From: Candidatus Pelagibacter communis
Lineage (GTDB): Bacteria > Pseudomonadota > Alphaproteobacteria > Pelagibacterales > Pelagibacteraceae
Reading direction: 5' to 3'
Assembly (NCBI RefSeq): GCF_001180105.1
Contig: NZ_CVSO01000070.1
Coordinates: forward strand, 1 to 64,000
DNA: 64,000 nt
The notes under the pieces are model-generated. The model was not told where the DNA came from and searched no databases. It was given only the letters and a program-made list of their open reading frames with translations. Position numbers and translations under genes: made by a program. The first letter of the stretch is position 1. Each line of letters opens with the position of its first letter. Shown piece by piece: positions 39,534 through 53,196 of the stretch.

Positions 39534-40114
39534 CCGTAACTTTCTAAATATTTTTTAATTTCCTTGATTGGAAGTCCCATTATTGTATCAGTATCTCCAT
39601 TAATTTCATCGAATAATTTTCTGCCTTCCCCTTCTATTTGATAAACGTTGTAAGAAAATAGATTTTTATCTGACACTTTTTTGAGATATCTTTTTAATTC
39701 ATCTTCAGAAAACGTTTTCATAACCATTTCTGCTTTATCTGTGTAGTTCCAAATCATCTTTCCATCCAATGAAATACATACGGAACTTATAAGATAGTGA
39801 GTCTTGCCGTTTAAATCTTTTAGAATTTCAAAAGCCTTCTTTCTATCTTTGGGTTTCGAAATAATTCTTCCATTTAAATCAATGACACTATCTGCTCCTA
39901 GAACAAATTCACCCAATTTATTTTGGCTTACTTTTGCTGCTTTAAGTTCGGCTAAATTTTTTGAAATCATCTCTGGATCTGCGCCCTCTTTGACAAGACT
40001 CTCTTTAATCTCATCTTCATCTAAATTTGATGGTATTACATCAAATTTTATGTTGTTCTTACTTAAGATTTGTTTTCTTACTTCGCTTCGTGAAGCTAAA
40101 ATTATTTTTCTCAT
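39530..40114 (-). CDS. maf: Maf-family nucleotide pyrophosphatase
   Basis: House-cleaning hydrolase of modified or non-canonical nucleoside triphosphates. The 194-residue protein has the entry motif ILASRSEVRKQIL (5-17, SxSxxR), EFVLGADSVIDLNGRIISKP (about 67-86, catalytic Asp) and GLPIKEIKKYL near the end. It overlaps its two neighbours by 4 bases each. The same gene stands near the origin in Caulobacter. Confidence 0.94.
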   Translation of the reverse strand: MRKIILASRSEVRKQILSKNNIKFDVIPSNLDEDEIKESLVKEGADPEMISKNLAELKAAKVSQNKLGEFVLGADSVIDLNGRIISKPKDRKKAFEILKDLNGKTHYLISSVCISLDGKMIWNYTDKAEMVMKTFSEDELKRYLKKVSDKNLFSYNVYQIEGEGRKLFDEINGDTDTIMGLPIKEIKKYLESYG

Positions 40115-40932
40115 TTTTGATTAAATATTTCATGAATTTTCAGAACTGAAGCTGCTGTTTCCTCGACTGATTTTCTTGTCACATCAATGCTTGGCCACTT
40201 ATATTTTTGAAATAATTTCCGAGCATCCTCCATCTCCTTTTGAACTGTATCTAAGTTTATATAATTTTTATTTTCATTTTCATTAATAGATTGCATTCTA
40301 TTTTTTCTAAGATCTACAAGTCTTTCTGGCTCTGCTGTGAGACCTACAATACATTTTTTAGTCGGATTTTTTTTGAGAGTTTCTGGAACAGAATTTTCAT
40401 TAACTAACGGAATATTAGATATTTTCATTCCTTTGTTTGCTAAATAAATTGCTGTTGGTGTTTTACTGGTTCTACTTACACCAAGTAGGACAATATCAGA
40501 TTTATCAATATCATCTACGGAATTACCATCGTCATGATTCATAGTGAATTGTATAGCTTCAATTTTTTTATAATAGTCATCATCCATAATATGTTGTCTG
40601 CTTGGTACATGAAGAGCTTCTTGATCCAACAACCTTGAAAATCTTAAAATTAGATCGCCGAGAATTCCAAAACAGGGAATTTTTTTTTTGTTGCATTTAT
40701 CAGACAAAAATTTAGCTAATTTATTATCAACTATAGTATATAAAACTATTGAATTTTTACTCATCTCTGAAGATTCTAATATTTTTGAGATTTGATTTTC
40801 TGTTCTTGTAAATGAATAAAAATGAGTTTTATATTTAAAACTTTTAAATTGTGCTTTGATGGCTAGAAATATCCTTTCTAAAGTTTCTCCTGTTGAATCT
40901 GAAATTAAATAAATGTCGTATGTATTAATCAT
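40111..40932 (-). CDS. ppsR: DUF299 pyruvate/PEP regulatory kinase-phosphorylase (RP001 family)
   Basis: Family members phosphorylate and dephosphorylate PEP synthase or pyruvate,phosphate dikinase to switch it off and on. The 273-residue protein begins IYLISDSTGETLERIFLA, has QHIMDDDYYKKIEAIQFTM (about 111-129) and the P-loop LGVSRTSKTPTAIYLANKG (about 150-168). It is the homologue of Rickettsia RP001, which flanks the chromosomal origin opposite hemE. The symbol is a family-based guess; the partner enzyme is not in the window. It heads the leftward unit. Confidence 0.88.
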   Translation of the reverse strand: MINTYDIYLISDSTGETLERIFLAIKAQFKSFKYKTHFYSFTRTENQISKILESSEMSKNSIVLYTIVDNKLAKFLSDKCNKKKIPCFGILGDLILRFSRLLDQEALHVPSRQHIMDDDYYKKIEAIQFTMNHDDGNSVDDIDKSDIVLLGVSRTSKTPTAIYLANKGMKISNIPLVNENSVPETLKKNPTKKCIVGLTAEPERLVDLRKNRMQSINENENKNYINLDTVQKEMEDARKLFQKYKWPSIDVTRKSVEETAASVLKIHEIFNQK

Positions 40933-41210
40933 GTATAAATAGTTTATATTTTTAAAGAATTGACATCATATTGTTCCTCTAAATTAATAGTAGAGATTAA
41001 TTTGTATAACCTCATATTTATAAACATTTTTAAACATGTTAAATAATATTATACTTTTAATACCTCAAAAATGTAAATTGTAAAAAATATAACAAATCTA
41101 TGACAAATTTATTAAATCATATGTGAAAAAACTGTTATAAAGATGTTAAAAAAATTAAGTTACCATTATTAACAGGACATAAAACTAATACTATAAATAA
41201 TATATCATAA
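40933..41210. other. candidate chromosomal replication origin (oriC)
   Basis: This 278-base gap, the longest in the window, lies between the divergent DUF299/RP001 homologue and hemE. Published work places oriC in this context in Caulobacter and Rickettsia. It is extremely A+T-rich (few G or C over 41005-41160). TTTTTCACA on the minus strand (41122-41130) fits the DnaA-box consensus TTWTNCACA; TTATACAAA (minus, 41001-41009) and TTATTAACA (plus, 41166-41174) have one mismatch each. Genes on both sides point away from it, as on leading strands. parS and parAB are 10 kb away. I see no CtrA pair with the usual 7-base spacing. Confidence 0.55.
40960..40988 (+). promoter_or_regulatory. candidate sigma-70-type promoter upstream of hemE
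   Basis: TTGACA (40960-40965) is a perfect -35 element, followed after 17 bases by ATTAAT (40983-40988), or after 18 by TTAATA. It points to hemE, 220 bases downstream, through the candidate origin. Caulobacter has a similar promoter inside its origin reading toward hemE. Confidence 0.4.
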
Positions 41211-42215
41211 ATGAATAATACGTTGATCAGAAATTGCATAGAAAACAACACAACTAAAATACCTATTTGGTTAATGAGGCAAGCAGGTAGGTATTTGCCT
41301 GAATTTCGATCAATCAGAAAAAAGAATGAGGATTTTATTAAATTATGTTTAAATAAAAAACTATCTTCCGAAATTACTCTACAACCTTTAGATAGATTTA
41401 ATTTCGATGCCGCAATATTGTTCTCTGATATTTTATTAGTCCCTTATGCATTGGGACAAAAAGTAAAATTTATGAAAAATTATGGACCTGAACTTGGTAA
41501 ATTAGATATAAATATTTTAAACAATATAAGCAAACAAGAGTTTATCTCTACTTTAAATCCAGTTTATGAGTCTTTAAAACTCGTTGAAAAAAAATTGTCT
41601 AAAAAAAATAAAGATATAATAGGATTTGTTGGTGCCCCTTGGACTTTGTTGGTTTATATGCTTAATAGAAAGTCTCCAAAAGAAAACAATTTTAACTCCA
41701 TACCAAAAAATAAAGAAGTAAATATATTATTAGAGAAAGTTATTGAATTTCTTAAAATTCATATTGATGCACAAATTAAAAATGGCGCCACAATAATTCA
41801 AATATTTGATAGTTGGGCAGGTTTATTAGAAGAAGATGATTTAGAGTATTTTGTTTACAATCCAACACAAAAATTAACTAATTTTATAAAAGAAAAATCT
41901 TCCACATCAATTTGTTTTCCAAGAAATATTAAAAATTATAGAAAATATGTTGAAAAAACAAAAACAGATATAATAAGCATTGATTACAACGTAGATCCTA
42001 ACGTTATAAAACATGAAATTGAGATACCAATACAGGGAGGTCTTGATCCTAAAATTTTACTAGAAGAATCTAAAATAGTGAAAAAGGGAGTTTTAAAATA
42101 TTTAGATGCGTTCAAAAATAATAGATACATTTTCAATTTAGGTCATGGTGTCTTGCCTAAAACAAATCCTGAAACAGTCAAATATATGGTAGAGTTAGTG
42201 AAAGATTACAAATGA
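41211..42215 (+). CDS. hemE: uroporphyrinogen decarboxylase
   Basis: Decarboxylates uroporphyrinogen III to coproporphyrinogen III. The 334-residue protein begins with the family motif IPIWLMRQAGRYLPEFRSIR (18-37), has FNFDAAILFSDILLVPYALG (Asp at the active site), GFVGAPWTLLVYML (about 143-156) and the C-terminal NLGHGVLPKTNPE. It overlaps hemH by 4 bases. It continues the pathway from hemD/hemC at 10 kb. Confidence 0.97.
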   Translation: MNNTLIRNCIENNTTKIPIWLMRQAGRYLPEFRSIRKKNEDFIKLCLNKKLSSEITLQPLDRFNFDAAILFSDILLVPYALGQKVKFMKNYGPELGKLDINILNNISKQEFISTLNPVYESLKLVEKKLSKKNKDIIGFVGAPWTLLVYMLNRKSPKENNFNSIPKNKEVNILLEKVIEFLKIHIDAQIKNGATIIQIFDSWAGLLEEDDLEYFVYNPTQKLTNFIKEKSSTSICFPRNIKNYRKYVEKTKTDIISIDYNVDPNVIKHEIEIPIQGGLDPKILLEESKIVKKGVLKYLDAFKNNRYIFNLGHGVLPKTNPETVKYMVELVKDYK

Positions 42216-43213
42216 ACAACGATCATCCGAAAGTAAATTTTGGTAAAACAGGTGTACTATTAGTTAATTTAGGAACCCCAGATTCTACTAGTTGGTGGGA
42301 TATAAGAAAATATTTGAAAGAATTTTTATCTGATAGAAGAGTAATAGAAGTAAATCCTTTCTTATGGAAAATTATTTTAAATTTATTCATTCTTACTTTT
42401 AGACCATCCAAAACAGCGAAAGCTTATAAAGAAATATGGATGAAAGAGGAAAATATATCACCGCTACGCTATTACACTATTAAGCAGACCGAAAAGGTGA
42501 AATCTATTATATCTAGTGAAAACTTGATCGTTGATTTTGCGATGAGATATGGGAACCCAAGCATCAATAGTAAAATGTTAAGTTTACAAGAAAGCGGATG
42601 TGAAAACATTATAGTACTTCCACTGTACCCACAGTATGCAGCAGCAACAACAGCAACAGTTTGTGATGAGGTTTATAGGACATTAATGAAAATGAGATGG
42701 CAGCCTAGCCTTCAAATTATACCTCATTACGAGTCTGAACCCTTATATATTCAAGCTATTGTAAATTCTATTAATCACAAACTTAGTAACATTAACTGGA
42801 AGCCTGATTTGATATTGGCTTCTTATCACGGCATACCAAAAAAGTATTTTGATAAAGGCGATCCATATCACTGTTATTGTCACAAAACATCTAGATTGAT
42901 TAAAGAAACTTTTAATAAAGACATACCTATTTTAACAACTTTCCAATCAAGATTTGGTCCTCAAGAATGGCTTCAGCCTTATACAGATAAAACTTTAGAA
43001 AATTTACCTAAAGATGGAAAAAAAAATGTTTTGGTAATTTCTCCTGGCTTTTCTTCTGATTGCGTTGAAACCCTTGAAGAAATTTCTATTCAGGGAAAAG
43101 AAAGCTTTTTAGACTCCGGTGGAGAAAAATTTGATACAATACCTTGCTTAAATGATAACGAGGATCACATAAAATTATTAGTGCACTTAATCAATAAAAG
43201 CATAAGAAAATGA
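42212..43213 (+). CDS. hemH: ferrochelatase
   Basis: Inserts iron into protoporphyrin IX. The 333-residue protein shows KTGVLLVNLGTPDSTS (about 11-26), FAMRYGNPSI (about 109-118), VLPLYPQYAAATTAT and the catalytic His in ASYHGIPKKYF (about 203-213), with YHCYCHKT after it and the FQSRFGPQEWLQPYT block. It overlaps hemE and hemJ by 4 bases each, so the three are translated as a coupled set. Confidence 0.96.
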   Translation: MNNDHPKVNFGKTGVLLVNLGTPDSTSWWDIRKYLKEFLSDRRVIEVNPFLWKIILNLFILTFRPSKTAKAYKEIWMKEENISPLRYYTIKQTEKVKSIISSENLIVDFAMRYGNPSINSKMLSLQESGCENIIVLPLYPQYAAATTATVCDEVYRTLMKMRWQPSLQIIPHYESEPLYIQAIVNSINHKLSNINWKPDLILASYHGIPKKYFDKGDPYHCYCHKTSRLIKETFNKDIPILTTFQSRFGPQEWLQPYTDKTLENLPKDGKKNVLVISPGFSSDCVETLEEISIQGKESFLDSGGEKFDTIPCLNDNEDHIKLLVHLINKSIRK

Positions 43214-44974: not shown

Positions 44975-45031
44975 GAAAAAGTACATTTAATAATTCATTT
45001 AAAATAATCTCTTATTTGATAGTATTTGTTT

Positions 45032-46726
45032 ATGTCCATTGATATGCAAAAATTAAAAAAACTCTTTCAGGAAAAAAAATACTCTGAGGTTGTTTTTGCG
45101 ATTGAGTCATTTACAACAGAAAAAAATAGATCTGCGGCCTTATACAATATCCTTGCAGTTTCTAGAGCATCACAAAAAGGTAAAACAGATAGAGATGTCC
45201 AGTATGCTTTGAATGAATTTGAAACTGCCTTTTATAAAGACAACCTAGGTGAAATATCACTTAACTCTGTATGTAGCCATATAAAGCTTTGTGTTGAAAT
45301 GGGTCGAAAAGATTCTGAATTAATAAATAATATTTTGATATCTGAAAAGATGTATCTTGAAGCAGAAAAAAAATTTTCTAAAAACGACAGATACTTAGCA
45401 CACGGCATCGACTTGTACAAATATCTTATAAGACATGAAGAAAAAATCGCCGCCGTAAAAAAAGTTATAAATAAAAATGGGTTAAGTAAAGTTTTAGGAT
45501 CTTCGTATATTACAGGTCAAATGTATATAAGTGATTGGAAACAAAAGAATTTTGCGGAGTTTCAAAAAAAGTTTTCTAATATATTTAGTGTCCTCAATTC
45601 AAAGAAACTTGGCAAGATTGATTTAGCAAAAAAAAAAATTAAAGTTGGTTTTTACTCACCTGATTTTAAACAACATCCAACTTTTTACTTTATAAAAGAT
45701 CTAATTAAAAATTTAAAACAAACAAAATTTGAGACTATTGCTCTATCTCTCTCAAAAATCCACCAACATGATAAAATTACTGATGAATATTTAAATCTTT
45801 TTGATGGCTGGATTAATCTTGGCGATAAATTAGATCAAGAAATAGTCAATACGATTCAGAATGAAAACATAGATATATTGATAGATCTAGTTGGTTTATG
45901 GGCATATAATAGAATAAATATTTTCAATACAAGAATATGTCCTCTTCAAATTAGTTGGTTAGGTTTTAATAATTCTACTGGTCTTAAAGAAGTAGATTTT
46001 ATTTTGGCTGACAAGAACACTGTGAAAGACGAAGAGAAAGAATATGAAACAAAAATTTATAAACTTCCAAAAATTTGGAATTCACATTGTGGATTTGAAT
46101 ATAAAAGAGTTTATAATGAATTACCTTATAAAAAAAATAACTATTTTACATTCGGTTCATTCAATAATTTTATGAAAGTAAATGACGAAGTGCTAGATAC
46201 ATGGATTGAAATTTTGAAAAAAGTTAAGAATTCTAAGCTAGTCTTAAAATCATCTTTGTTGCTTTGCGAAGAAGTTATAAAGAAAAAATTTGAAAAAGAA
46301 GGATTAAAAAATTCTGTTGAAATTTTAAAAAAAACAAAAAGGGAAGATTTTATATCTCACTTAAACCTTTATAATAAGATAGATTTATGTCTTGATACTT
46401 TTCCATTTACTGGTGTGACAACAACTTTTGAAGCATTATGGAAAAATGTCCCTGTAATAAGTAAGGCAGGATATAACTTTAATTCCAGGTGTGGTGAAAG
46501 CATTTTAAGAAATGCAAATATTGAAAATTTTATTGCTAAAAGCAACTCTGATTATGTTCAAAAGGCTGTTTTTTATGCTAAAAATATAAACGAATTAGAA
46601 AAAACAAGAAATAATCTTTTTGATAAAATTCAAAAAACACCCTTATTTGATACAAAAGGATTTAGTGATGATTTTTCTGAAGCACTTGTAAATATGCAAA
46701 AGTTAATAAGTAAAAATTATAAATAA
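45032..46726 (+). CDS. SPINDLY/OGT-like glycosyltransferase
   Basis: The 564-residue protein has a helical N-terminal part (about 1-195, weak TPR-like: SRASQKGKTDRDVQYALNEFE). A two-Rossmann GT-B domain follows with VGFYSPDFKQHPTFYFIKDL, CPLQISWLGFNNSTGLKEVD (about 304-323), FGSFNNFMKVNDEVLDTW and DLCLDTFPFTGVTTTFEALW (about 447-466), typical of the COG3914 SPINDLY group. Donor and acceptor are unknown. Start: ATG 45032 is preferred over TTG 45026. It is related to the protein at 5782-7449 and convergent with a sulfotransferase. Confidence 0.78.
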   Translation: MSIDMQKLKKLFQEKKYSEVVFAIESFTTEKNRSAALYNILAVSRASQKGKTDRDVQYALNEFETAFYKDNLGEISLNSVCSHIKLCVEMGRKDSELINNILISEKMYLEAEKKFSKNDRYLAHGIDLYKYLIRHEEKIAAVKKVINKNGLSKVLGSSYITGQMYISDWKQKNFAEFQKKFSNIFSVLNSKKLGKIDLAKKKIKVGFYSPDFKQHPTFYFIKDLIKNLKQTKFETIALSLSKIHQHDKITDEYLNLFDGWINLGDKLDQEIVNTIQNENIDILIDLVGLWAYNRINIFNTRICPLQISWLGFNNSTGLKEVDFILADKNTVKDEEKEYETKIYKLPKIWNSHCGFEYKRVYNELPYKKNNYFTFGSFNNFMKVNDEVLDTWIEILKKVKNSKLVLKSSLLLCEEVIKKKFEKEGLKNSVEILKKTKREDFISHLNLYNKIDLCLDTFPFTGVTTTFEALWKNVPVISKAGYNFNSRCGESILRNANIENFIAKSNSDYVQKAVFYAKNINELEKTRNNLFDKIQKTPLFDTKGFSDDFSEALVNMQKLISKNYK

Positions 46727-47550
46727 CCTAATTCAATCATTTCTTTATTAAAAAGGGTCTCGATCTTTTTTATTAAATTAGCTGGTAGTTCCTTTTTCCA
46801 TTCACCAGTTTTTCCACTTCTAAAAAATAATTCTCCTTTACCCTTTTCTGAAAAACCCTCAGCTTTTTCTATTTTTTGCAACTCTTCGAATTGAGTTTGT
46901 TTTATTGCTTTTCTTAGTTTCTCCTCGTTTAATTTAGTACCATCAACTTCCTTTAAATAATTTATTATTTTTTCAAATGTATTGAACTTATCCAAGAGCA
47001 TATCTTCATATTTTACAATTAAAGTTTTACAAGATTTATAATTTTTCCAAGATTTATAGTGATCCGACCAGGTACCGATTAAGGTTTTTTTATATCTTTT
47101 ATCCCCTGATAAAGGATATTCAAAATAGAACGAAGAGGATAAATTTTCATATGTTTTTTCATAATTAAGGCCCATGTGATGTGAAAGAGAGATCAAAACG
47201 TCTCTAGGATCTCTAACTATGTAGATCGCGCCTTTAGTATTTCTATTTGTAGTAAACTGGTATTGGCCTATTGTACACATTGCATTATGAGTTTTAACAA
47301 AGTTCGTTATATTATTAAGATTTATATAGTCTTGCATTGTTTCCCAATTTTTTACTATTTCTTCAAATTTGAAATAATCTACTTTAAGTCGATCTAATAA
47401 TAATTGATCTGGAAAACCTTGTGGTTTAAAATTATCAAGAATTGAACCTTCCAGGTTAAGTTTTTCATTTGATTCCATGAAATAACTTTTTAAAAACATA
47501 CGCATCCATGTGTTGCCACTCTTAGGATATGAAGCCAACCAAATTATCAT
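46717..47550 (-). CDS. PAPS-dependent sulfotransferase
   Basis: The 277-residue protein opens IIWLASYPKSGNTWMRMFLK (2-21), whose PKSGNTW is the 5'-phosphosulfate loop, and has IYIVRDPRDVLISLSHH (about 108-124) as the 3'-phosphate site. The GDKRYKKTLIGTWSDHYKSW and C-terminal FRSGKTGEWKKELP blocks are typical of cytosolic-type sulfotransferases (PF00685). I start it at the ATG at 47550, because the upstream extension overlaps mnmE and shows no domain sequence. It overlaps the SPINDLY-type gene by 10 bases, convergently. Confidence 0.88.
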   Translation of the reverse strand: MIIWLASYPKSGNTWMRMFLKSYFMESNEKLNLEGSILDNFKPQGFPDQLLLDRLKVDYFKFEEIVKNWETMQDYINLNNITNFVKTHNAMCTIGQYQFTTNRNTKGAIYIVRDPRDVLISLSHHMGLNYEKTYENLSSSFYFEYPLSGDKRYKKTLIGTWSDHYKSWKNYKSCKTLIVKYEDMLLDKFNTFEKIINYLKEVDGTKLNEEKLRKAIKQTQFEELQKIEKAEGFSEKGKGELFFRSGKTGEWKKELPANLIKKIETLFNKEMIELGYL

Positions 47551-47599
47551 GATATATTTTAATGATATCCTTATATAAAATTCAATATATAATATAATC

Positions 47600-48931
47600 A
47601 TGACAATTTGTGCTTTATCAACTGGAATAGGAGCTTCAGGAGTTGCAATTATTAGAATTTCTGGCCCAGAGACTAGTTCCCTTATCAAGTCTTTAACAAA
47701 TAAGGCGCTTCCAAAGCCTAGAGAGGCCACCCTTCTGGAATTAAACAATATCAATAATTCTAGACCAATTGATCAAGGAATAGTTTTATGGTTTCCTGGC
47801 CCAAAAAGCTATACAGGCGAAGATATGGCTGAATTACATGTGCATGGAAGCAAAGCTGTAGTTAAAGAGCTTCAAGAAACCCTTTTAAGCACAAAAAAAT
47901 GCAGATTAGCCGAGCCCGGAGAATTTACCAAGTTAGCATTTTTAAATGGAAAGATAAATCTACTGCAAGCAGAGGCGATAGGCGATTTAATAGCAGCAGA
48001 AACAGAAATTCAAATGGAACAGGCCCAAAATATTATAAAAGGTAAGTCTTTTTTAAAATTTAATGAACTAAGAGAGAAATTAATAAAAGTTTTGTCAAAA
48101 ATTGAGGCAAAGATTGACTTTCCAGATGAAGACTTACCCTCTAATGTTCTTGATGATGTTAAAAAAGATGTATCTATTATTGAGAATGAAATCAAAAAAA
48201 TATTATTAAGCTACGAAGTCGGAGAAAAAATAAGATCAGGTTATAAAATTGCTATAGTTGGTCCTCCCAACTCTGGTAAATCAACTTTAATGAATTATTT
48301 AAGTAAAAGAAATGTAGCAATAGTGTCTGATGTTGCAGGAACTACCAGAGATGTGTTGCAAACAAATCTAAATTTTTATGGTTATCCAGTTATAATTTCT
48401 GACACTGCGGGTATAAGAGACTCTAAAGATCTAATTGAGAAAGAAGGTATTAAACTTGCTTTCAAAAAAGCAGAAGAAGCGGATCTTAGAATAGTCGTTA
48501 TAGAGCCAAAAAATGTTGATTTTTATGGTTTTTTGAATGATTTATTTAATAAGAATACAATTTTAGTTATTAACAAATCAGACCTTAATAAATTTGACGT
48601 TAAGGATAGACTCAATAAATATGATCCAATCTCAGTATCTTTTCTCAAAGAAAAAAACATAGATGAATTGATAAATCGTATTAAAAAAAATTTAATTACT
48701 GATATGAAGTTCAGTGACGACATTTTTGTAACTAGAGAAAGACACAAAAATAATTTGAAAGAATGTTTAATAAATTTGCAAAACTTTAGAGATAAAACAG
48801 AAGCTTTAGATTTTGATAAAGGTGCTGAAGATCTTAGACTAGCACAAGTGAGTTTAGGCAAAATTGTTGGAAAAGTTGATGTAGAGGCCATATTAGGCAG
48901 TATTTTCAATGATTTCTGTATAGGTAAATAA
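47600..48931 (+). CDS. mnmE: tRNA modification GTPase MnmE
   Basis: With MnmG, makes the 5-carboxymethylaminomethyl group on wobble uridine 34. The 443-residue protein shows the folate-binding N-terminus (GASGVAIIRISGP, PKSYTGEDMAELHVHGS), a helical domain, the GTPase G1 loop GPPNSGKSTLMN (about 219-230), DTAGIR (about 265-270), NKSD and the C-terminal FCIGK whose Cys is essential. mnmG follows after 116 bases. Confidence 0.97.
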   Translation: MTICALSTGIGASGVAIIRISGPETSSLIKSLTNKALPKPREATLLELNNINNSRPIDQGIVLWFPGPKSYTGEDMAELHVHGSKAVVKELQETLLSTKKCRLAEPGEFTKLAFLNGKINLLQAEAIGDLIAAETEIQMEQAQNIIKGKSFLKFNELREKLIKVLSKIEAKIDFPDEDLPSNVLDDVKKDVSIIENEIKKILLSYEVGEKIRSGYKIAIVGPPNSGKSTLMNYLSKRNVAIVSDVAGTTRDVLQTNLNFYGYPVIISDTAGIRDSKDLIEKEGIKLAFKKAEEADLRIVVIEPKNVDFYGFLNDLFNKNTILVINKSDLNKFDVKDRLNKYDPISVSFLKEKNIDELINRIKKNLITDMKFSDDIFVTRERHKNNLKECLINLQNFRDKTEALDFDKGAEDLRLAQVSLGKIVGKVDVEAILGSIFNDFCIGK

Positions 48932-50919: not shown

Positions 50920-51554
50920 TAGATTCGCATAAAATTGATTACTCAAAACTAGACACTTTGAATGTTTCACGTGAAACATTTCTTGAATTAGATGAATTTA
51001 GAGAAATGATTTTGGATGAGAACAAAAAAATTAATTTAATTAGCCAAAATACTGTGGAATTAGCCAGAGATAGACATATAGTTGACTGTGCACAAATCAT
51101 TGATTTAATTGACGAAAATCACCTATCTTGTACTGATCTAGGTTCTGGCTCAGGTTTACCTGGTTTAGTTATAGCCATTATCAAAAAAAAACAAAAATCG
51201 AAGATGAAATTTTTTCTTTATGAAAAAAGTTTTAAAAAAAGCAATTTTTTAAAAAAAGTTATTAATAAATTTGAACTAAACGCTGAAGTAATAAATCAAA
51301 ATATATTTGATCAAAAAAAATTAAATTCAGATTTGATTGTAGCGAGGGCATTTAAACCTTTGCCGGTTATTTTAGATTTAGTAACGAAGAACTTCGATGA
51401 TTTTAAAGACATCATTTTGTTTTTAGGAAAAAGTGGAAAGAGTTCTATTGAGCAAAGTTTAAAAAAGTGGAATCTAGAATTTTTAGAAAAAAAAAGTGTA
51501 ACAGAAAAAGATTCAATCATAATTAAAATTAATAAAGTGAGTAAAAAAAAATGA
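50916..51554 (+). CDS. rsmG: 16S rRNA (guanine-527-N7) methyltransferase RsmG
   Basis: Methylates G527 of 16S rRNA. The 212-residue protein has the SAM loop [15 protein letters not shown] (about 67-81), the N-terminal [23 protein letters not shown] and [15 protein letters not shown]. The start is TTG 50916, overlapping the mnmG stop; the domain needs these residues. The NVSRETF codons near residues 15-21 are the parS site. The end overlaps parA by 4 bases. Confidence 0.95.
50963..50978. promoter_or_regulatory. parS: parS centromere site inside rsmG
   Basis: TGTTTCACGTGAAACA is a perfect 16-base palindrome identical to the universal chromosomal parS consensus bound by ParB. It lies in the 5' part of rsmG, whose codons here spell NVSRET, the known parS-bearing position. 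parA and parB begin 570 bases further on. The site supports an origin close by. Confidence 0.95.
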
Positions 51555-52351
51555 AAGAGAAAATTATTTCAGTCATCAATCAAAAGGGTGGTGTTGGAAA
51601 AACGACAACTGTAATTAATTTAGCTGCAGGACTTAGTTTAAATGGAAAAAAAATACTAGTTATAGATTTGGACCCACAAGGAAACGCGACAACAGGATTA
51701 GGTTTGTCAAATGTAGCAGATACTAGCAAATCAATTTATGGAGTTTTGAATGGAAAAGAGGAGATTCAAAGTTCAATTCAGAAGACCAATTTTCAAAACT
51801 TAGATATCGTAACATCAAATGTTGATTTATCTGGTTTGGAAGTTGAAACCGCAGATGACGAAAATAGGGCATATCTTTTAAAGACTAAATTAACCTCATA
51901 TTTAAACAATTCTAGCCACTCTTACGACTACGTCTTGATTGATTGTCCACCTTCTTTAAGTTTATTAACTGTGATGGCTTTGGTTGCATCAGACTCATTA
52001 GTTGTGCCTTTACAGACAGAATTTTTTGCCCTTGAAGGGATAACTCAGCTTATAAAAACAATAGATCGTATTAAGGTCGGTCTTAATCCAAATTTATTTG
52101 TAAGAGGAATTTTGTTAACGATGTATGACAAAAGAAACAGACTATCCGCACAAGTTGAAACAGATGCAAGAGATTATTTTAAAGAAAAAGTCTATCAAAC
52201 AGTAGTTCCTAGAAATGTCCGTTTATCAGAAGCACCTTCACATGGGGTCCCTGTTTTAATATATGACAAACATTGTCCAGGAAGTAAATCTTATATTAAA
52301 TTTACAGAGGAGTTTTTGGCTCAAGAATCGAGTTTCGTAACAGCAGCATGA
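51551..52351 (+). CDS. parA: chromosome partitioning ATPase ParA (Soj)
   Basis: Walker-type ATPase that moves ParB-parS complexes. The 266-residue protein has the deviant Walker A NQKGGVGKTTTVINLA (10-25), LDPQGNATTG (about 41-50), the VLIDCPPSLSLL Walker B (about 127-138) and EAPSHGVPVLIYD near the end. It overlaps rsmG and parB by 4 bases each, so rsmG-parA-parB are translationally coupled. Confidence 0.97.
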   Translation: MKEKIISVINQKGGVGKTTTVINLAAGLSLNGKKILVIDLDPQGNATTGLGLSNVADTSKSIYGVLNGKEEIQSSIQKTNFQNLDIVTSNVDLSGLEVETADDENRAYLLKTKLTSYLNNSSHSYDYVLIDCPPSLSLLTVMALVASDSLVVPLQTEFFALEGITQLIKTIDRIKVGLNPNLFVRGILLTMYDKRNRLSAQVETDARDYFKEKVYQTVVPRNVRLSEAPSHGVPVLIYDKHCPGSKSYIKFTEEFLAQESSFVTAA

Positions 52352-53196
52352 CCAGTATTTTTAAAAATAAAAAAGGTTTAGGAAGAGGATTGTCATCTTT
52401 AATAGGAGATACGAAAACTGTTTCGAAAAACAATAAGATTTCAGTGAGCGACCTAATACGTAATAGATATCAACCTAGAAAAAATTTTGATGAAGAAAGT
52501 TTAGTTGAATTAACAAATTCAATTAAAGCAAGGGGAATAATACAGCCAATTATAGCTAGAAATTCTGACAAAAAAGGTAAATATGAGATTATTGCTGGTG
52601 AGAGAAGATGGCTTGCCGCACAAAAAGCAGGTCTTCATGAAGTGCCAGTCGTAATTGTTGAAGCGGATAATAAAAAAGCCTTAGAATTTGGAATTGTTGA
52701 GAATGTTCAAAGGCATGACTTGAATCCAGTTGAAGAAGCCGAAGGATATAAGAGATTGATAGATGAGTTTGCTTATGACCAAGAACAAGTTGCCAATTTT
52801 ATTGGCAAAAGCAGGAGTCACATAACTAATTGTCTAAGGTTACTTACTTTGACTGATGATATATTAGATTTATTAAAGAAAAATAAAATTTCTCAAGGAC
52901 ATGCAAAAGTTTTAGTTGGCCATGAAAATGCAAGCAATATTGTTAAGAAAATTATTAAAAAAAATTTATCAGTCAGACAAACTGAAAATTTAGTAAGAAT
53001 TCATAAATCTTACTCAAAATCTCAATCTGCCTCAAAGGATCCAAATATCAGGAAGCTTGAAAATGATATATCGGAGAAAATTGGATTATTAGTTAAGATA
53101 CAAAATAAAAGAAATAACAGGGGTTATCTCACATTTAGTTATAGAGATCTAGATCAACTCAATTATTTAATTGAAATAATTAAAAAGCACTTTTAG
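52348..53196 (+). CDS. parB: chromosome partitioning protein ParB (Spo0J)
   Basis: CTP-dependent DNA clamp that loads at parS. The 282-residue protein starts GLGRGLSSLIGD, has NRYQPRKNFDEESL, the CTP-binding IIAGERRWLAAQ (about 75-86) and ENVQRHDLNPVEEAEGY, a helix-turn-helix (FIGKSRSHITNCLRLLTL, about 151-168) and a C-terminal dimer domain. The parS 1.4 kb upstream is its expected target. It overlaps the holA end by 17 bases, convergently. Confidence 0.97.
   Translation: MTSIFKNKKGLGRGLSSLIGDTKTVSKNNKISVSDLIRNRYQPRKNFDEESLVELTNSIKARGIIQPIIARNSDKKGKYEIIAGERRWLAAQKAGLHEVPVVIVEADNKKALEFGIVENVQRHDLNPVEEAEGYKRLIDEFAYDQEQVANFIGKSRSHITNCLRLLTLTDDILDLLKKNKISQGHAKVLVGHENASNIVKKIIKKNLSVRQTENLVRIHKSYSKSQSASKDPNIRKLENDISEKIGLLVKIQNKRNNRGYLTFSYRDLDQLNYLIEIIKKHF

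Follow-up and report, generated by a model that had tools for sequence, protein, structure and literature searches.

Introduction

The closest described counterparts of the locus studied here are Cori of Caulobacter crescentus and the hemE-linked origins of Rickettsia and Wolbachia, which are flanked by hemE and COG1806/RP001, are AT-rich and carry DnaA boxes (PMC1914354). As far as the available text of that study goes, an origin of the hemE/COG1806 type is intergenic between these two genes or beside one of them, is richer in AT than the genome average, holds several DnaA boxes, more than occur elsewhere, and shows a shift in GC skew; it also carries an IHF site and, without these being taken as required, CtrA sites, with the reservation that not all origin elements may occur in all genomes; the origins of Caulobacter and R. 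prowazekii are over 400 bp long, and that of Wolbachia, placed between COG1253 and hemE, stays beside hemE after its other neighbour has changed (PMC1914354). In Caulobacter, parS is found within 8 kb of the origin (PMC4468827), and the G- and W-boxes are weaker than the E. coli consensus (PMC4285127, PMC4468827).

A further point of reference is the basal unwinding system of B. subtilis and others, which combines a DnaA-box with DnaA-trios (PMC8287927, PMC6669920). The published rule, in the excerpt available, asks for a box with no more than two mismatches, followed after a spacer of up to 16 bp by three or more trios of the form 3'-NAN-5', with spacer lengths peaking at 10–13 bp and GAT being the commonest trio beside the box (PMC8287927).

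Regarding SAR11, a figure legend states that the oriC of HTCC1062 was identified manually (PMC4033161), and the accessible part of another report notes that an ortholog of ctrA was not found in Pelagibacter (PMC2877005). Among the literature matches listed, we recognised no description of a SAR11 origin at the sequence level. SAR11 predictions may be contained in DoriC.

Results

The gap between RP001 and hemE

The window, by which we mean the whole stretch of 64,000 nt analysed here, is contig C70 of an 80-contig, 860-kb, 78%-complete assembly, and its named relatives are Pelagibacteraceae (SAR11). A first-pass annotation of this DNA had singled out the gap at 40933–41210, described as long, very A+T-rich and bounded by divergent RP001/DUF299 and hemE genes, as a candidate chromosome origin. 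The coordinates are exact, the bounding ORFs running from 40111 to 40932 on the minus strand and from 41211 to 42215 on the plus strand, and Pfam identifies both genes: the left flank is the RP001/DUF299 Kinase-PPPase gene (PF03618, E=5e-90) and the right flank is hemE, for uroporphyrinogen decarboxylase (PF01208, E=8.6e-87). The gap is consequently intergenic between hemE and COG1806/RP001, as are origins of the hemE/COG1806 type. With 278 nt, it is indeed the longest non-coding stretch between the 72 called ORFs of the window, where the second-longest gap, with a tRNA in it, measures 196 nt and the median length is 0. Its GC content of 16.9%, against 21.7–40.3% in the 1-kb bins of the window, bears out the description as very A+T-rich and puts the AT content above the genome average. 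Several genes on both sides are directed away from the gap.

The chromosome-partitioning genes also lie where the annotation had put them, about 10 kb to the right. A perfect parS, a palindrome of 16 nt where rsmG begins (50963–50978, plus strand), is found 9.75 kb from the gap and is followed on the same strand by parA (51551–52351; PF13614, E=2.5e-61) and parB (52348–53196; PF02195, E=5.6e-34, with PF17762 and PF23552). In the relatives G012 (with one mismatch), G042, G083 and G085, parS is likewise found 7–17 kb from the gap.

Between rho and mnmE, at 45026–47754, there is a segment with a GT41-type glycosyltransferase and a sulfotransferase. A GT41 match is present in 21 of the 35 loci of relatives that include rho, in some cases ending at the locus edge, and was not found in the other 14; the segment is a small variable cassette a few kilobases from the proposed origin. 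As listed, the sulfotransferase ORF (46717–47754) begins with TTG and overlaps the mnmE ORF, which is encoded on the opposite strand; the true start of the sulfotransferase is therefore probably located further in.

DnaA boxes and their conservation

The first-pass annotation had counted one consensus DnaA box and two one-mismatch boxes in the gap, and we recover the same sites. TTWTNCACA occurs once, as TTTTTCACA at 41122–41130 on the minus strand (shuffle expectation 0.03), and TTATNMACA is found at 41018–41026 and 41166–41174, both on the plus strand (expectation 0.26). In the window as a whole neither pattern is enriched (10 sites against 11.8 expected and 14 against 13.3), so single boxes mean little and the weight is carried by their clustering and conservation. 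TTATNCACA was not found in the window.

Conservation was followed in the genus of the window (g1), in other genera (g5–g9) and in the families f1 and f2. For the same-genus set, 67 of 71 entries had both flanking genes, giving 61 distinct gaps of 255–285 nt; L002, L050, L068 and L070, lacking hemE or both genes, were left out. A held-out set, of the same genus and outside the alignment, comprised 34 loci (30, plus 4 same-genus loci of another 20), from which 8 were dropped as duplicates of the first set, the remaining 26 giving 25 distinct gaps; the 30 were read out of a search in which hemE was present in 191 of 198 genomes. The hemE genes of other genomes are only 54–68% identical to that of the window, and a search for RP001 succeeded in 41 of 49 genomes of the same genus and in 0 of 32 from family f2. 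In one genome (G180:C1:358209-359176), hemE is matched by two segments that overlap but differ in frame, one of them with two stops, so this copy may be frameshifted or contain an assembly error.

Seen across the genus, the annotation's view that the DnaA sites are few, and the origin minimal, turns out to be an undercount: six positions are box-like, most of them degenerate, and the boxes are thus degenerate rather than few. On the left, a rightward box, TTATAAACA (41018–41026, plus strand), matches TTWTNNACA exactly in 37 of the 61 gaps and with at most one mismatch in 59. It is followed by a weak and poorly conserved rightward box, TTTTAAACA (41028–41036, plus; 3 exact, 30 within one mismatch), and by a leftward box that is degenerate in the window (TATTTAACA; 41037–41045, minus) and often reads TTAT[ATC]AACA in relatives (38 and 50). 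Further right there is an array of three leftward boxes at 11-nt intervals on the minus strand, the first being the consensus box of the first-pass annotation (43 and 53), the second TTTATAACA (41133–41141; only 5 exact, 53 within one mismatch) and the third TTTTTAACA (41144–41152; 36 and 52). Lastly, 22 nt from the third array box, lies the rightward hemE-side box TTATTAACA (41166–41174, plus), which comes within one mismatch in 59 of the 61 gaps and is the proposed anchor of an unwinding filament; its variants are TTATTAACA in 22 gaps, TTATTCACA in 15 and ATATTAACA in 14. The box-like rate over all gap positions, these conserved sites included, is 2.6%. Across the 53 nt from 41122 to 41174 none of the 61 gaps has an indel, and the 11-nt and 22-nt spacings are preserved throughout; as the gap sequences are related by descent, these conservation counts are not independent events.

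Relative to shuffled sequences the boxes are strongly enriched. TTATNMACA has 159 sites and is present in all 61 gaps, against 11.3 ± 3.2 sites in dinucleotide shuffles, and in the held-out gaps it has 72 sites in 24 of 25, against 5.1 expected. TTATNCACA occurs 37 times, in 29 of the 61 gaps (2.1 in shuffles), and TTATCCACA was not found in any of them. We also scanned for box clusters in 280-nt segments at two thresholds, with a matrix trained on relatives, the window and G012 being left out of the training set. At the lower threshold the gap is the top cluster of the window (score 58.8, the runner-up reaching 29.4), and it comes first in the scanned 46% of G012 (53.5 against 37.3), in the scanned ~30% of G083, by a near tie (36.5 against 36.4), in the scanned ~30% of G086 (46.1 against 35.4) and in the scanned 200 kb of G042 (67.2 against 41.5), the gap of G042 being itself in the training set. 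At the higher threshold it ranks first in all these stretches too. The gap therefore has several DnaA boxes, degenerate ones, and more of them than elsewhere.

The family box consensus is TTATN[A>C]ACA. Family f1 gaps have TTATNNACA boxes in which A usually occupies position 6 (122 of 179 in g1), unlike in TTATNCACA, and A predominates there in g5, g6, g7 and g8 too, not in g9; base composition may contribute to this preference. Domain IV of DnaA was read in 16 of 26 dnaA loci, including 11 without an extracted protein. It has VRPRQ[TVI] and NRDHTT in g1 (loci L111–L122 and L252–L257), against ARPRQ and GRDHTT in the f2, g5, g6 and g7 proteins read. A coupling of the A at position 6 to the g1 changes in domain IV is not supported, since g5–g7 combine such boxes with the usual domain IV.

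A candidate unwinding module beside hemE

Between the last box and hemE there are triplets whose second base is T and whose third is A. In the window, a 10-nt spacer (41175–41184, plus strand), within the reported peak of 10–13 bp (PMC8287927), leads from the hemE-side box to CTA ATA CTA TAA ATA ATA (41185–41202, plus strand; lower strand 3'-GAT-TAT-GAT...-5'), a candidate DnaA-trio tract and AT-rich unwinding zone. The window follows the rule for the basal unwinding system: TTATTAACA has two mismatches to TTATCCACA, and after the spacer CTA ATA CTA supplies three 3'-NAN-5' trios in a row, the one closest to the box being GAT. In family f2, two of the 18 loci (L145 and L156) have CTACTACTACTA, with GAT four times, and shorter runs occur in other loci. 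Unlike in that system, breaks are frequent in the putative trios of the SAR11 genus, which read TAT or GAT, and a single good box stands beside them.

Summed over the 61 gaps, NTA triplets are distributed over the three phases as 189/24/107, and the largest phase total reached in mononucleotide shuffles is 109. At least four trios, with one break allowed, are present in 41 of the 61 gaps, against 5.3 in dinucleotide shuffles, under a trio definition that is loose in AT-rich DNA. Box plus triplets are found in 14 of the 25 held-out gaps, against 0.5 expected.

For a wider comparison, 30 RP001 loci were read from 79 genomes of the class that have RP001 and belong to other families; hemE adjoins RP001 in 28 of the 30. 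The pattern CACA[GC], a spacer of 2–12 nt and three C[ACT][ACT] triplets occurs on the hemE-directed strand in 13 of these 28 gaps, against 1 on the other strand and 0.5 in shuffles, and CTACTA occurs in 6 of 28, against 0.7, both patterns having been picked post hoc, after the sequences had been viewed. Three strict [ACT]TA triplets are not enriched in this class sample (2 of 28, against 1.0).

We consider it probable that the hemE-side triplet tract acts as the unwinding element. An arrangement in which the gap is oriC and unwinding takes place elsewhere within it, for instance in the AT-rich centre at 41046–41110, with the hemE-side triplets reflecting the hemE promoter or mere AT-rich chance, seems unlikely, if well short of negligible. 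In its favour, NTA triplets come easily in a gap that has 17% GC in its entirety, the best triplet phase is shifted in 17 of the 61 gaps, and the class lacks enrichment of the strict triplets; moreover, the trio counts of g5, g6 and g9 (2, 2 and 3 sequences) rise no higher than the shuffle range, the g9 sequences having two in-phase trios only. On the other side stand the leading phase total, which is well above the shuffle maximum, the persistence of a discernible tract in g5 in spite of the distance to hemE there, and a pairing of box and trinucleotide tract with matching side and strand in 13 of the 28 gaps of other alphaproteobacteria.

Loss of either neighbouring gene

Two lineages have lost one of the genes that border the gap. 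Of the f2 genomes, 20 were searched for hemE, with 18 giving a match, and 15 for RP001 with the Pfam model, with none giving one; the place of RP001 is taken in 18 of 18 loci by a divergent ORF of 194–201 aa, identified by Pfam as Maf in L156 and similar-looking in L150. The block of box and triplets beside hemE is retained in spite of this loss, much as the Wolbachia origin stays with hemE (PMC1914354). Unlike Wolbachia, genus g5 (G081 and G084) presents the reverse case. Here the element is kept beside rho, which follows it at ~350 nt from RP001, and box-like TTATAAACA and CTA triplets persist without an adjacent hemE; since hemE is found hundreds of kilobases away as a more divergent copy, it has been moved or replaced.

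These losses bear on the reading of the gap as nothing but a divergent promoter/leader region of RP001 and hemE, with the conserved blocks as promoter or regulator sites. A gap that separates two divergent genes must contain their promoters, one conserved block is close to hemE, and the origin of Caulobacter overlaps promoter elements too. As the element outlasts the loss of RP001 in f2 and of adjacent hemE in g5, promoters alone do not explain it; besides, clusters of DnaA boxes with 11-nt phasing are foreign to promoters, and an Rfam search of 40000–42300 returned zero matches up to E=1. We regard this reading as very unlikely.

GC skew and the position of dnaA

According to the first-pass annotation, a skew minimum at another place, such as the neighbourhood of dnaA, would speak against an origin in the gap. 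GC skew was evaluated in sampled stretches of four complete relatives that share ancestry, at a resolution of ~30–60 kb. The best equal-arm axis lies at +27 kb from the gap in G012, +20 kb in G083, −8 kb in G086 and −34 kb in G085; the axis of the gap itself ranks 3, 4, 1 and 1 among 100 in these genomes, with permutation p values of 0.063, 0.073, 0.007 and 0.007. The dnaA gene lies 63–71 kb from the gap and, in each of the four, at a greater distance from the axis than the gap does, which runs counter to that objection. This agreement is rough: free-arm fits for two of the genomes, G086 and G012, put the origin ~230 kb away from the gap, and GC skew mirrors gene orientation. At fourfold-degenerate sites of G012, GC skew carries no origin signal at the gap axis (leading minus lagging = −0.028). 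Gene orientation is accordingly what drives the raw skew, and fourfold-site skew was dropped as an origin marker. Leading-strand coding in G012 peaks (0.64–0.65) for an origin at 1260–1300 kb, with the gap at 1262 kb.

In many bacteria oriC is found beside dnaA. For the upstream check, 15 of 26 dnaA loci were extracted, 14 of them with 300 nt upstream (G085 has 9 nt only); TTWTNMACA was not found upstream of 11 of these 14 genes and has one site in the other 3. That the true origin lies beside dnaA, ~61–73 kb off, and the gap is a DnaA-titration or regulatory cluster is highly improbable, for even though the skew resolution leaves room for a position tens of kilobases away, the equal-arm axes favour the gap, TTWTNMACA sites are lacking upstream of most of the dnaA genes extracted, and the dnaA-bearing stretches scanned in G012 and G042 have box scores below that of the gap.

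The side on which dnaA lies is variable. In 12 genomes dnaA is 61–73 kb from the element, in the direction of hemE in g1 and g7 and in that of RP001 or Maf in g5, g6 and f2, a contrast that sets G085, G081, G084 and G049 against G012, G083, G086, G087, G088, G082, G090 and G180. In G085, mnmE-parB has switched side too, its orientation still being away from the gap. These switches fit inversions spanning the origin; the same picture would result if just the core block had undergone a small inversion.

CtrA and IHF motifs

The window has no IHF site, and a conserved one was not found in the 61 same-genus gaps, where WATCAN5WTR occurs 10 times, in 8 gaps, against 22.1 in shuffles. The CtrA motif TTAA-N7-TTAA is also absent from the window; it is present in 24 of the 61 gaps, where no conservation of its position was found. 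The motif is mildly over-represented, with 54 occurrences against 32.7 in the 61 gaps and 34 against 14.8 in the 25 held-out ones, at scattered positions. An origin of this surplus in the 11-nt phasing of TTAACA boxes was rejected because only 5 of 27 occurrences overlap a box.

Discussion

In this study, we have described the gap between RP001 and hemE in the genome of a SAR11 bacterium, abundant in the ocean, and its counterparts in relatives. The cluster of DnaA boxes, its order-wide conservation, its survival of the loss of either neighbour and the rough agreement with the skew axis support its annotation as a candidate chromosome origin, and conserved box spacing and in-phase triplets add to the same picture. 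We put at about 90% the probability that the gap is the chromosomal oriC of this genome, in the hemE/RP001 position of the Caulobacter and Rickettsia origins; that DnaA binds, unwinds and fires there is what we infer from this sequence evidence.

More generally, the SAR11 gap is almost certainly a hemE-side alphaproteobacterial origin, of a known type and in its usual place, that is compact and has weakened initiator boxes. Compared with the hemE/COG1806 origins as far as the available text describes them, it matches in gene neighbourhood, AT content and DnaA boxes and departs in the IHF and CtrA sites (PMC1914354), the equal-arm and free-arm skew fits pointing in different directions. It differs from Caulobacter and Rickettsia in having no conserved CtrA or IHF site, in the A that mostly occupies box position 6, and in its length of 255–285 nt, which is shorter than the origins of Caulobacter and R. 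prowazekii. Its boxes are, like the Caulobacter G- and W-boxes, weaker than the E. coli consensus, and parS lies nearby, at ~10 kb in the window, as it does in Caulobacter.

The anatomy of the gap fits an assembly of DnaA on a phased array of low-affinity boxes, and the growth of a filament that starts at the hemE-side box and reaches the triplets. In such a scheme, DnaA would bind the degenerate boxes of the left cluster (41018–41045) and of the 11-nt-phased array (41122–41152), the latter closed by the inward-facing box at 41166–41174. From this box, a DnaA-ATP filament would extend rightward across the 10-nt spacer, engage the lower strand of the tract at 41185–41202 and open the very AT-rich stretch beside hemE. 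The helicase would then be loaded at the opened stretch, with forks departing both ways, and ParB-parS, 10 kb off, would separate the origin copies afterwards.

A broader proposal, which we put forward tentatively as a possibility, is that the hemE-side combination of CACA, spacer and trinucleotide tract is an ancestral alphaproteobacterial unwinding module that predates CtrA control. SAR11 would have kept it with a drifted box, TTATNAACA, and without CtrA or IHF. Under this proposal, the tract being kept as CTA/ATA trios in SAR11 and as C-N-A/C in other members of the class, the DnaA of the class would tolerate a variable middle base in the trio.

If the gap is the SAR11 oriC, its base-level map would provide a fixed anchor on the chromosome, and the initiation mechanism would become testable with purified DnaA and a 280-bp fragment. 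A CtrA-free alphaproteobacterial origin would be available for comparison with that of Caulobacter, and the two one-sided gene losses, in f2 and g5, would serve as natural experiments that separate the origin from the promoter.
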